Of a stretch of DNA of 64,000 nt, positions 39,801 to 45,800 are shown in pieces (positions within the stretch are counted from its first letter, which is position 1; each line of letters begins with the position of its first letter). Made by a program: the position numbers and the translations under genes. This DNA is from Pomacea canaliculata (taxonomy: Eukaryota; Mollusca; Gastropoda; Architaenioglossa; Ampullariidae): NCBI RefSeq assembly GCF_003073045.1, contig NC_037597.1, positions 23,388,158 through 23,452,157 of the forward strand, read 5' to 3'. The notes under the pieces are model-generated. The model worked only from the letters and a program-made list of their open reading frames with translations. It had not been told where the DNA came from and searched no databases.

Positions 39801-42800
39801 TGGCGTAGGAAGATGCTCGGTTTTGTGGTGGGTGGGGGAGCAAACTTTATGCTGACAGTGAAAGACATTCACATTTTTTTCAGCATCTTTATTGAGGGGG
39901 AACTGCCCCCCTGGTTCCTATGCCACTGTACTTGTGGACTCTGAAAAATAGAAAATATTATCACCCTCTGCAATATCTTCTGACTTCAGTGGGTATCACT
40001 CACCAAAATGGCAGTGTCAAGGACATCTCGAACATCCCTCATAGCACCCACATCATCCCAGGTCACGTCTGGCACTGTAGCAAAACCTTCTCTTAGTGCT
40101 GAAGGTTGTACTTTCTTAATAGCTTTCTGCACAAGTGTACAAGGTCATCATGAAAACACTACAACAGTTAACAAACAAACCAAAAACTCACAAAAACTGA
40201 ACCTGGAATGCACTACATGTCTGTATATTTTAGTGTCTTCCTTTTCAATGTTTTTTGATCACATAATCCAGCTTTTCTTATCTAAGACTATTTCCATGTT
40301 TGCAGTGGATATTAATGAAATAAATTGAAATAGCTTGCAAAATTAGTTGTAGAAAAGTTACCATGAAGTCTTCTGTCATTATTGTCAGGCATTCTCTTTT
40401 TTCTTCTTCAGACCACAGAATGTCTCCACCCTCAGCACCTACACAGAGAGTAAAAGAAATAGTGCTGTCTCATGTTTATGTGTATTGCTTCCACGTAAGC
40501 CAGTTGTTCTCAGTGTGGTCTGCGGATCACTTGTGGGCCACATGCATAAGTCAGGTTGTCCACAGCTGACAGTCATCATATGTCAGCAAAGTGATGTTTA
40601 AATCGTCAGATATGCTAATCGGTCCAGTCTTGATTTCACATGAGCTTTGATTTTATCGATGCCCAACTGCTTGTTTGCATAAAATGCTTGCTTACCCACT
40701 AAGTCTTTAAGTCACATGGTGAACATTGTGTCATTTAACTGCGTCATCCATTACCCCTTCGTAATGCAGAGCACTTCCTTATTTTTAATTTTTATGTATA
40801 CTTTGTGAAGTATGTAATTTTATGTAAACTTTACTTTCACAAAAATGCATTTAGTTTTGAATTGTAATGAAATCAAATGTGACAATTTAAATTTTAAATT
40901 CATGGTACAGAGTGATTTTAGGCCTTGGTGGTCCGCCATATTTTTTACTTTAGTAAAGTGGTCTGCGGTCTGAAATACTTTGAGAACTACTGATGTGAGC
41001 AACTTTTTTTATCTACTCAACTACCACTACAATCAGTTGTTCTGTATATAATGCTATTTAAATATATCTTGAACTAAACATAGCTAGGCATCTGATCCTT
41101 ATTCATAAGAGTTTTTTAAGAACATTTATAAGACTTTGGTATTCTTACACAGAAATGCCTTACAGCTAGCAAAATTTTAATTTAATTCACCTGCAGGTGG
41201 TAATGGTTCATTCCATAATGAACTTTCTTGTGAAATGCTGTTATCTTTTCCTTCTACTTCACCCTTTATGCTCCTGAGTTTGAATCTTGACAATCTGTAA
41301 AGCACCATGAAAACAATCTATTCTTTTAAAAAAAAATTTGTTGTAAATTTTTTATGTGAAATGTGGGTCTGAGAGGCATGTTTCGTCTTTTCTCAGGAAA
41401 GAAAGGAAAAAACAAACAAACAAACAACAACCCCAACTTATTCCCATATAAGAATTTCTTAAATGTTGAGCAATGTCTAAGAAGTACTGAAATAAAATAA
41501 TTATGACAACTGAAGATGAATCATGAATAAATAACAGAATGTGCCCCCAAACACACACAAAGTAGTAAATCTACTGTCACACACAAAAAAAAAAGCAGGT
41601 TGTCCTAGCTAGCTAGATTTCTGCCCTCTCCTAACTCCTCTTCACTGCTCTCTGTATTTTCTAACAAGAACACAACAGAAACCAACAGAAGAAAATTACC
41701 TGGTTAATCTCTTCAAGGCCTGCAATCCAGCCTGTCTTTTTACATCATTGAGATCTCCACCCAGAAATCCTGGAGTGGCTTTAGCTACTGCTTTTAGATC
41801 AATGTTTGGTGACAGGGTCATCTTCTTACTTAAATTACGCAGAATGGCTTCCCTTGTTTTTTCATCTGGTATGCCAAGAGCTATTTCCATGCCAAAACGG
41901 CCTTGAATCCGCAAAGCTCTGTCAATTGAGTCTGGTCTCCTTGTGGCACCAATCACTAGAATACTTTCAAGGTGTGACTTTAATCCTATAGAAACATGGA
42001 CACTCATGCTTTCAGGGCATGCCTTCAAGTTTAACAGGAAAACACCGACTTAAAAGTATAATGAAGGATAAGTAACTAAATTATATAGAACTGCATGGAT
42101 GCTTTTCTCACATTTTTTACTGCATTCATAAATGAATGTATGCTTGATATTAGCACGTACTTGACCCACCATCATAAAAGAATGAATATTTACGAATATT
42201 TACGAATCCTCTCCATCCATACAACATTTTTTATCATATTGCACTTCTTGCATCTCTTGAAGAATAACAGGACATATACCACATGTACCATGTGTACAGA
42301 TAATATATATATGCAATTATAAATAACTTTTTATTACTGAACTCAATATAGTCATGAATCTCTTAATGATAGTGATATATTTTGAGAAATGGTTGTTAGT
42401 GATTTCATTGTTGTGTGAATGTTACCATATACAGTCATGTACTGCTTAATGATGTTTTGGTAAACAGGCCTTATATAAGACCGTTATAATGGGACCATTG
42501 GTGTTTATGCAGTCCATTGTTGACCGAAACTATGTTCTACAGTGCATGACTGTAATAAAAATCTTAAGAAGCAGTTAAAGGCCTTTAACTAATGAACATT
42601 TTCTTTTTCTTCAAACATGTAGGGTACTGTTGTATAATACACAAATGATAAGATGTAGAAGACTTTTTTTCACAATGAGAACATACCATCCATGCAAGAC
42701 ATCAGCTGCATAGTCATCCTGCGCTCCATCTCTTTGTTAGCATTTTCTGTATTAGCAGCCACACTCTCAATGTTATCAATAAATAAGACACAAGGAGCAG

Positions 42801-45800
42801 AAGTCTGAAATAAACATTAAATACTGGCAAATATTCATCACTGCAAGGTCGCTTAAATACATGTGCATTTAAACAAATGAGAACACTGCAAAAATTAACA
42901 GCACTGAAGTAGAAGTACAGATAGTACAGATACTACTGGGATCCCTTTTAGATGAACCAACTTGTTGTATATTGTATTGCATAATCTGTATGTTTAATTT
43001 TTTTTATTCTAATTTAAGTCACATGTCACTGAGTTTTTTGTTTAGGGAAGAGCAGGGGTGGGAGCTCATGAGCCATGTGTCAAGAATTGTAAGCAAGTAA
43101 TATTTTGTTATTGTACACAATGTTCCCCTGCAAAATTATGTTAATGTGGGTGGTATTAGTCATATCATAACTTTCCCCCATGTGCCCTAGAGCCAGATTT
43201 CGATTTGAGGTGAAAATGCAGGAACATTGTAAAAAATACTTCACTCATGTGTGATCATACTCAAAATGATCCTGTATTGGAAAGGCCTCCTGACTTTCTT
43301 TGCTGAATGTTACTTATACTGCCTGAAAAAATCTGCTGACAAAACTACCTGTGTCCTTTTTAAACAAACATAAAAAATTACTATTAAGAAAGTTAACAGT
43401 CGAAAAACTAAAAAGCTTGCAGGACAAATCTGCAGTACTTACAAGAGCCTGCTCAAATAGCTGTCGTATGTTTTTTTCTGATTCCCCTGACAAGCCTGAG
43501 ACCAAAGCAGTGGCTGGAACTTCCAATAATGGCACAGAAAGATGCTGTGAGATTATGGAAAAAGACATGCACATAAGGTTTCCTGACCAACGACATTGTC
43601 AAAATTCAAACAAACAACTACTACTACTCCTACTGCCAACGGTCAATACTTGCAGGCTTAAAACCTCAAACAAGCATAAAGAGAAGTATTAATACTTAAA
43701 AGACTGCTTGTTTTGGTGGGCGAAACCTATTTCTTTGTCAAGTAACAATCTCTCCTCCTATTAATATAAACATTTTTAGACACAAGCCAATTTTTTTGCA
43801 CACTAAAGTCAGTGAACTCATCCTTCAGTCTTTGCTGATGTCAGATCAAACAGGTTCTTTCTATCTTTTGATATGGCACTTCACTGGCTATCCACTGTTT
43901 TACAGCTACCAATAAAAACTCCCTAAAGATAATTAGTAAACGGGTATCATTATCCATTATTTTTATTGCCTTATTCGGCTCAGTAAAATAACCACTTGTT
44001 GGAAGCAAAGTCAATAATAATAATACCAACAGTGAACTGAGAAGACAAGAGATTCAAATGTAATACCTACCCCTGCTATACAATTGGCCAGGTGAGACTT
44101 CCCACATCCTGGAGGCCCATGCAATAAAATACCCCTGTTGGGTGTAATGTCTACTTCTGAGTACAGTTCTGGTTGATGAAACAGCTCCAGCTGGTCGGAT
44201 AAGTCCTGACAAAAATTTATTCAACATCTCTGACAAGCTAAGTCACAAAGAGGCCTTAATTATAATCTGCAAAAGTCAGATCACAAATGTTCTTCTTTTT
44301 GTTCGATAATTGTGTCATGCCCAAAGACCAGATGAACCATGATATTTTTTTTATATGTGATCATAGATAGTTTTATAACATCACTAATGATCCATCCATA
44401 AACCTTTTTTAATTTAACATTGGACAAGACCTAGCATTAGTATTTCTTATCTAACATCCAAGAAACATCCCGACTAAACACATTAAATAAAATGCAGATA
44501 GGGCTCCTTATTCTCTTCACTGTATTTTCCAGTTAGCAATTTGGTCGTTACTCTGAATAGAGAAATACTTTTACTCTTGATCTATTATAAGAAATGCTTA
44601 CTCATTTTCTTATTTTTCATGTGATCCATTATGTCAAGTTTTAATAGAAATAACACAAGATGAAATTTTGATTTTTTTGTTCCGTGCTACACCACTGCAG
44701 GCATGCCCAAATTATCTCTAAAATGTAAACTTATTTTAATTTTGGAGTTAAAAAAAAACAACAAAACTTACAGACTTACCATCAGCATCTTGTCATGGCC
44801 CACAAACTCTGAAAAGTTGACAGTTGGATTCAGCTGCATTACACCTGCCACTTTTTTAAAAAAAAAGTACTGGATATAAGCTCATGGTTAGAGATCAAAT
44901 TGTTCAATACAGATTCCTGGGAAAAAAGTTGTGCCAGTGTGTTTGTGACATGGCTTTCTAGTACTTTTGGTGTGCCTGTGTACCAGTCATGAAAGATCTT
45001 TTAATTCATGATTATGAAAAGAAAAATGGGACTGAATATTGTTAGCATATATGACCAGAAAAAAGTACAGTAAGAATAAACAAGCACTGTGAGTAAAGAG
45101 CTGCGTGTTAACTAGATAATTTGATTGTATATAAATGACACTGCCAGCTTCTCAGTCAGATTGAGCTTAGATTCAACCACTTAAGGCCATCTTGCTAGAT
45201 GTTCTCTACTGAAGTTACAAAAAATACAATATAAAGATGAGGGATTACCTTCTTTTTTTATGTCTATCTCCTTGTCTCTTGCATGCTTTCTAACTTTCTT
45301 TTTGGAAATCTGTAGAAATGACATCAAGTGCTCACTTTAATGTAAACTGTTCACAATGCAGGTCAAAACTTTTACCGTAAGGTCTATGGGAAAAACTTGT
45401 ACAAAGCACTCAGCTCCATATAAAAAGAATATAGTACCTACACACTGTTTGTTATTACCACTGTTTGGAATAACAACAGTGAAAGTTTTAATCAGTGTAA
45501 TTGTTGCTGAAAAAGAAAAAATGGAAAGGGACAAGAGAGCAACATGAACACAAACATTTCCTTAAAGGTAGAGCTTCCAGCTTCCAAGAATGGTTCAAAC
45601 TGGGAATAGGGCGGTAAGAGTGCTGGTCAGAGAGAACAAGAGAAAATGTGGTGCCACAATAGGATCACACAGAAACCACACTGATCAAACAAACATGTGC
45701 ATCTACTTACACTATGCTTTGATGAAGATGATGGTGACTGCACCATCTCAATCTCTGTTTCCTGCAATGGTTCACTTATTTCCATAAGAACTGGAGTTTT

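Follow-up and report, generated by a model that had tools for sequence, protein, structure and literature searches.

The window holds a complete NVL gene model

We analysed a 64,000-nucleotide window from the snail Pomacea canaliculata (assembly GCF_003073045.1, contig NC_037597.1, positions 23,388,158 to 23,452,157), which contains a complete gene model for NVL, the AAA motor protein of ribosome assembly known in fungi as Rix7. The model runs on the minus strand from 49307 to 36587 and comprises 23 coding exons encoding 840 amino acids, with an ATG at 49307, GT-AG boundaries at all 22 introns and a single terminal stop codon ending at 36587; an earlier 19-exon version had 49 and 51 stops in the two other frames. 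An earlier note on this DNA, made from its letters alone, had named the gene as NVL and described its reading frame and splicing as intact, and we agree on both counts. The exon positions it gave were also right, but the gene is longer than the span it had claimed.

Human NVL was the top PDB match of a 736-residue version of the snail protein (1.2e-186, residues 6-730), followed by Rix7 (1.8e-137). Whole-length scores were 625 bits for human NVL, 463 for Rix7, 458 for an archaeal VCP-like protein, 444-458 for p97, 415 for AFG2A and 333 for AFG2B, making the snail protein a better whole-length match to NVL than to other type II AAA proteins. There are two tandem AAA domains, D1 and D2 (PF00004; 125.5 and 163.2 bits, respectively), preceded by an N-domain of the NVL type, PF16725, and not the Cdc48 double barrel (residues 7-75; 4.6e-12, 46.1 bits, cut-off 27). 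In six-frame translations PF16725 stayed below its cut-off because the N-domain is split over short exons, and the idea that this domain was missing was rejected given its good score after splicing. The motif WYVD aligns with the human NVL W-AIM, where W173-F-I-D176 is reported to bind MTR4 (PMC6662825, partial text). In the pore loops, D1 keeps the NVL/Rix7-type serine (GLS) and D2 has an aromatic-hydrophobic pair (NMYVGESE), the yeast Rix7 loops being given as G278-M279-S280 in D1 and Y607-V608 in D2 (PMC6355894, partial text). Judged by its sequence, the gene is the NVL (Rix7) orthologue, single-copy as far as our searches show. Its features are as follows.

36587..49307, minus strand: NVL gene model, 23 coding exons (spliced translation, alignments)
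47162..49307, minus strand: nucleolin-binding N-domain PF16725, on exons 49307-49242, 48541-48450, 47527-47478 and the start of 47178-47072 (Pfam)
45837..45851, minus strand: W-AIM-like motif WYVDR (alignment to human NVL; PMC6662825)
44071..44205, minus strand: D1 exon, Walker A GPPGCGKS intact (first base 44118)
43443..43544, minus strand: D1 exon carrying pore loop 1 SGLSGESE, NVL/Rix7-type serine kept
42687..42804, minus strand: D1 exon with Walker B FIDNIE (first base 42783), Asp359 kept, Glu replaced by Asn360 (AAC)
41700..41985, minus strand: D1 exon with sensor 1 GATRRPD (41950) and finger loop ALRIQGRF (41917); Arg404 AGG, Ile415 ATT, Arg418 kept
39545..39649, minus strand: D2 exon, Walker A GPPGCGKT intact
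38030..39034, minus strand: D2 exons carrying Walker B FFDELD, sensor 1 AATNRLD and arginine fingers LRPGR, all intact

D1 has lost catalytic residues that D2 keeps

Numbered along the 840-residue model, D1 retains an intact Walker A motif (GPPGCGKS, residues 300-307) and the Mg-coordinating Asp359 of Walker B. The Walker B Glu, which is the general base, is replaced by Asn360 (AAC) and the sensor-1 Asn by Arg404 (AGG). The first arginine finger, R365 in yeast Rix7, is Ile415 (ATT), which lies 11 residues past sensor 1, matching the spacing of R365 from N354 in yeast, and which corresponds to p97 R359; the second finger survives as Arg418. Each of the codons AAC, AGG and ATT is at least two nucleotide substitutions from any canonical codon. 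D1 has also drifted elsewhere, reading GRFGME for GRFDRE, DRA for DPA, EFVG for DVGG and GGD for GAD.

In D2, Walker A, Walker B (FFDELD), sensor 1 (AATNRLD) and both fingers (VLRPGRL) all have their canonical residues. D2 therefore carries every one of the residues taken to define hydrolysis competence (Walker B Glu, sensor-1 Asn and the two fingers) and D1 does not; we strongly infer that the snail D1 would be unable to hydrolyse ATP at a useful rate. The motifs quoted in the earlier note are all present on the minus strand, its exons at 42804-42687 and 41985-41700 are exact and flanked by AG acceptors and GT donors, and its description of an intact D1 Walker A, a replaced Walker B Glu and sensor-1 Asn, and a normal D2 was borne out. 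It had further described the arginine-finger region of D1 as non-canonical, which needs the refinement that the first finger is lost but the second is not.

The losses stand out against the family in D1

We compared alignment columns between the snail protein and human NVL, Chaetomium Rix7, a plant Cdc48 and the archaeal VCP-like protein, scoring as Glu the Gln that stands in its place in Walker B of human D1, human D2 and Rix7 D2. The Gln in D1 of the human NVL PDB chain is an engineered change, and the natural residue there is Glu. Among columns invariant in the four other proteins, the snail breaks 14 of 60 in D1 versus 4 of 67 in D2 (Fisher p=0.009), and the Glu, Asn and finger Arg all fall among the 14 broken D1 columns (p=0.011, calculated post hoc, the sites having been named beforehand by the earlier note).

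Relative rates were expressed as snail-unique versus human-unique residues. For D1 these were 23 vs 12 with Rix7 as outgroup (p=0.09), 34 vs 17 with plant Cdc48 (p=0.02) and 37 vs 9 with the archaeal protein (p=4e-5), and for D2, in the same outgroup order, 22 vs 10 (p=0.05), 14 vs 12 (p=0.85) and 15 vs 6 (p=0.08).

Comparison with other AAA proteins with two rings

Human NVL/NVL2 (PDB 9bji) has the N-domain, W-AIM, D1 and D2 in common with the snail protein, with 100 of 186 aligned residues identical in D1 and 132 of 190 in D2, but its D1 differs in having the sensor-1 Asn and both finger arginines. Fungal Rix7 (PDB 7t3i) is likewise an orthologue whose D1, unlike that of the snail, keeps the Glu and Asn; in Chaetomium Rix7 the D1 finger loop is two residues shorter. 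In yeast Rix7 the D1-E306Q change is reported to be mild and D2-E634Q severe, and mutants of D1 Walker A, sensor 1 (N354A) and the finger (R365A) to have severe growth defects, with the authors concluding that both rings must bind ATP and that hydrolysis is driven mainly by D2 (PMC6355894, partial text).

The closest mechanistic comparison, which is one of analogy and not of membership, is with Pex1/Pex6, where dead D1 domains are reported to stay ATP-bound while D2 is the motor (PMC10518020, partial text). Both systems have a dead D1 ring over an active D2, with Walker B and finger degenerate (the snail keeping one of two fingers), but Pex1/Pex6 is a heterohexamer in which Walker A is also degenerate and the loss is family-wide (PMC5070193), whereas the snail Walker A is intact. 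NSF, within the Cdc48 family, similarly has one of its two AAA rings degenerated, although here D2 is affected and the loss is again family-wide (PMC5070193). A D1 Walker B mutant of Drg1/AFG2 has ATP loaded and unhydrolysed in D1, as proposed for the snail, but by a single engineered change; it is reported to bind substrate more tightly, with ~60% release in vitro (PMC6920918, partial text).

A probable structural D1 ring above a D2 motor

Taken as a whole, the observations are best explained by an intact NVL with a hydrolysis-dead, structural D1 ring and a D2 motor, an explanation that we consider probable. D1 would be a nucleotide-holding structural or gating ring and D2 the motor because D1 keeps nucleotide-loading and pore features and loses turnover residues, and the case for ATP binding by such a ring draws on Pex1/Pex6 and on the mild effect of D1 Walker B loss in yeast. 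We hold each step of the proposed mechanism with moderate confidence, by analogy: D1 would still load nucleotide and assemble into a hexameric ring fixed in a single nucleotide state; this ring would serve assembly, substrate entry or gating, and coupling to the N-domain; and D2 alone would power threading of the pre-60S factor, as is reported for Pex1/Pex6. Since yeast is reported to grow poorly once Rix7 lacks the D1 sensor 1 or finger, compensating changes elsewhere in snail NVL or in its partners are implied. A more specific proposal, which we regard as doubtful, is that D1 is ATP-locked, such that Arg404 would reach the gamma-phosphate in cis, replace the missing trans finger and hold ATP, and NVL would act as a D2-only unfoldase that bypasses the D1 requirement seen in yeast. 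The inactive-D1 state of NVL, known from a single genome, would be a putative lineage trait.

Three points weigh against a structural D1. The yeast D1-N354A and D1-R365A changes, at positions altered in the snail, are severe, so that losing D1 activity in this way is not simply neutral. ATP binding by D1 is itself less than certain because of drift close to the pocket (EFVG for the DVGG motif ahead of Walker A, GGD for the GAD of the lid). Finally, snail D1 has changed faster than human D1 in two of the three comparisons, which would fit plain relaxation too. In that alternative the constraint on hydrolysis was lost in the lineage, the domain is drifting to decay, NVL works by D2 and the state of D1 has no special role; the 14 broken columns and the drift beyond the three sites also point this way. 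We nevertheless consider it possible but unlikely, given D1 exons free of stops and frameshifts and bounded by good splice sites, the 100 of 186 residues still shared with human D1, the retention of Walker A and of the NVL-type pore-loop serine, and the reported need for D1 Walker A in yeast (PMC6355894, partial text).

Catalytic sites in other AAA domains

As a prokaryotic control we used 80 Cdc48/FtsH-type loci, with the best match of each, and 132 aligned pieces that include second AAA domains. The sensor-1 Asn and both finger arginines were kept in 80/80 best matches; the Walker B Glu was also present in 80/80, a figure that is uninformative as the search pattern IIFIDEID contained the Glu and another pattern applied in only 1/80. 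Across the pieces covering each site, the Glu was kept in 128/130, the sensor-1 Asn in 129/131, the first finger in 127/131 and the second in 129/131, and 5 of the 132 pieces departed from the usual residue at one of these four positions or more (L055, L065, L072, L089 and L090). Two of these are extensively altered in their second AAA domain: L065 (Synergistaceae, 2826-3341) has Asn for the Walker B Glu and has lost both fingers, and L090 (Syntrophaceae, 2817-3341) has Ser for the Glu, Val for the sensor-1 Asn and Ala for the first finger. The Cdc48-like L090 therefore resembles the snail protein in losing the same three sites in one AAA domain while keeping Walker A and the second finger, but differs in being bacterial and in having the second domain affected, its first domain being canonical at these sites. 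Comparable degenerate rings have thus evolved in other members of the superfamily, and the snail case is precedented as a chemical pattern; the presumed dead rings of L090 and L065 are convergent.

No relatives of the snail D1 were found in viral contigs. One locus filed as Verrucomicrobiaceae (L042, JAIYDP010000488.1) has a Cdc48 D1 86% identical to that of plant Cdc48 and is probably eukaryotic contamination.

In the literature, no report of an NVL with a dead D1, and no paper pairing Pomacea with the full NVL name, was found among open-licence publications, searched at the level of titles and partial abstracts with incomplete result lists. Within that literature the loss pattern is unreported for NVL, and it would be new only as a case in NVL.

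The same-genome control covered the fetched loci, a subset of the AAA genes, with exons scored separately so that most matches cover some of the sites. Outside NVL there were 80 distinct matches, 25 of them covering each site. Walker B had Glu in 23, Asp in one and Thr in one (at an exon edge); sensor 1 had Asn in 20, Ser in three, Gln in one and His in one (at an exon edge); the first finger was Arg in 23, Cys in one and Ala in one (at an exon edge); and the second was Arg in 23, with one Thr and one Lys, both at exon edges. None of the matches covering the Glu, sensor 1 and first finger had lost all three.

Some of these deviations are worth recording in their own right. A single-AAA gene with an unbroken frame of 389 amino acids (L014, C12:22959226-22959780, minus strand) has a DDLD Walker B, with Asp for the Glu, and a sensor-1 Gln with both fingers kept, making it a further degenerate AAA protein of this snail. 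Two near-alike tandem double-AAA genes, possibly AFG2A-like (L028 and L029, C3:33196815-33200705 and C3:33207575-33212241), have Ser at one sensor 1 (GITSKPDSIDPALRRAGRLDYE). A Cdc48-type AAA domain (L010, C13:19223791-19224189, minus strand) has Cys at the first finger (DPAVRCQGRLEEE) with Walker B and sensor 1 intact; it is perhaps AFG2B, although the C13 domain scored highest with Cdc48 and lower with AFG2B, and the AFG2B label is a guess.

Variation of this sort at single sites (the three sensor-1 Ser and the one first-finger Cys in this genome, and the shorter finger loop of Chaetomium Rix7), together with the retained Arg418, lends something to the view that the snail D1 still hydrolyses ATP through a rearranged site in which Arg404, Arg418 or other residues stand in. 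Such residual catalysis has no candidate general base, the nearest acidic residue, E362, occupying the place of the final Asp in the canonical DEID and not that of the base, and we regard it as highly improbable.

Copy number and assembly quality

We searched the whole genome (440,159,624 bases in 24 contigs) using snail D1, human NVL D1 and snail D2 as queries. No second NVL, which the earlier note had set as grounds for rejecting its reading, was recognised outside the gene among the best-scoring matches, the weaker matches being identified only in part. Matches to snail D1 outside the gene reached at most 47% identity, compared with 82-100% for the gene's own D1 exons, and the genome matches to human NVL D1 included no alternative canonical D1 exons near the NVL gene. 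The leading candidates other than NVL were rejected, reading as VCP, ATAD2-type, Cdc48-type on C13 and PEX6-like on C8 at 25.1 Mb, names that rest on recognition of the sequences by eye.

The earlier note had likewise allowed for assembly error. P. canaliculata is reported to be highly heterozygous and alternative haplotype contigs were removed from its assembly, which was built from PacBio reads with Illumina polishing and has 98.0% of the core eukaryotic genes represented in its gene set (PMC6129957, partial text). Errors or a minor haplotype could in principle have altered D1, but they would have had to produce three in-frame changes in two exons, each of at least two bases, in a polished long-read assembly, and we consider an artefact of either kind very unlikely indeed. 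Equally hard to credit is a specialised paralogue with a canonical NVL doing the housekeeping elsewhere, as although other AAA genes are duplicated in this genome (the tandem pair on C3), nothing of the kind was found for NVL itself among the best-scoring matches, in a genome with so complete a gene set.

Neighbouring features

The intron that separates exon 2 of NVL from exon 3 contains, at 47861-48390 on the plus strand, reverse-transcriptase-like frames with a VRQGC motif, probably a LINE fragment; their Pfam match to RVT_1 is weak (25.5 bits, below the cut-off of 29.6, with an approximate query sequence). Upstream of NVL and on the same minus strand, kinesin exon-like frames were recognised by eye at ~52400-63000.

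Significance

NVL is reported to be one of three members of the Cdc48 family maintained in all eukaryotic lineages (PMC5070193), and yeast is reported to need both sensor 1 and the arginine finger of D1 for growth. An animal whose only detected NVL is without the catalytic Glu, the sensor-1 Asn and the first finger would offer a natural experiment on whether the D1 ring of double-ring AAA machines supplies fuel or instead acts as scaffold and gate.

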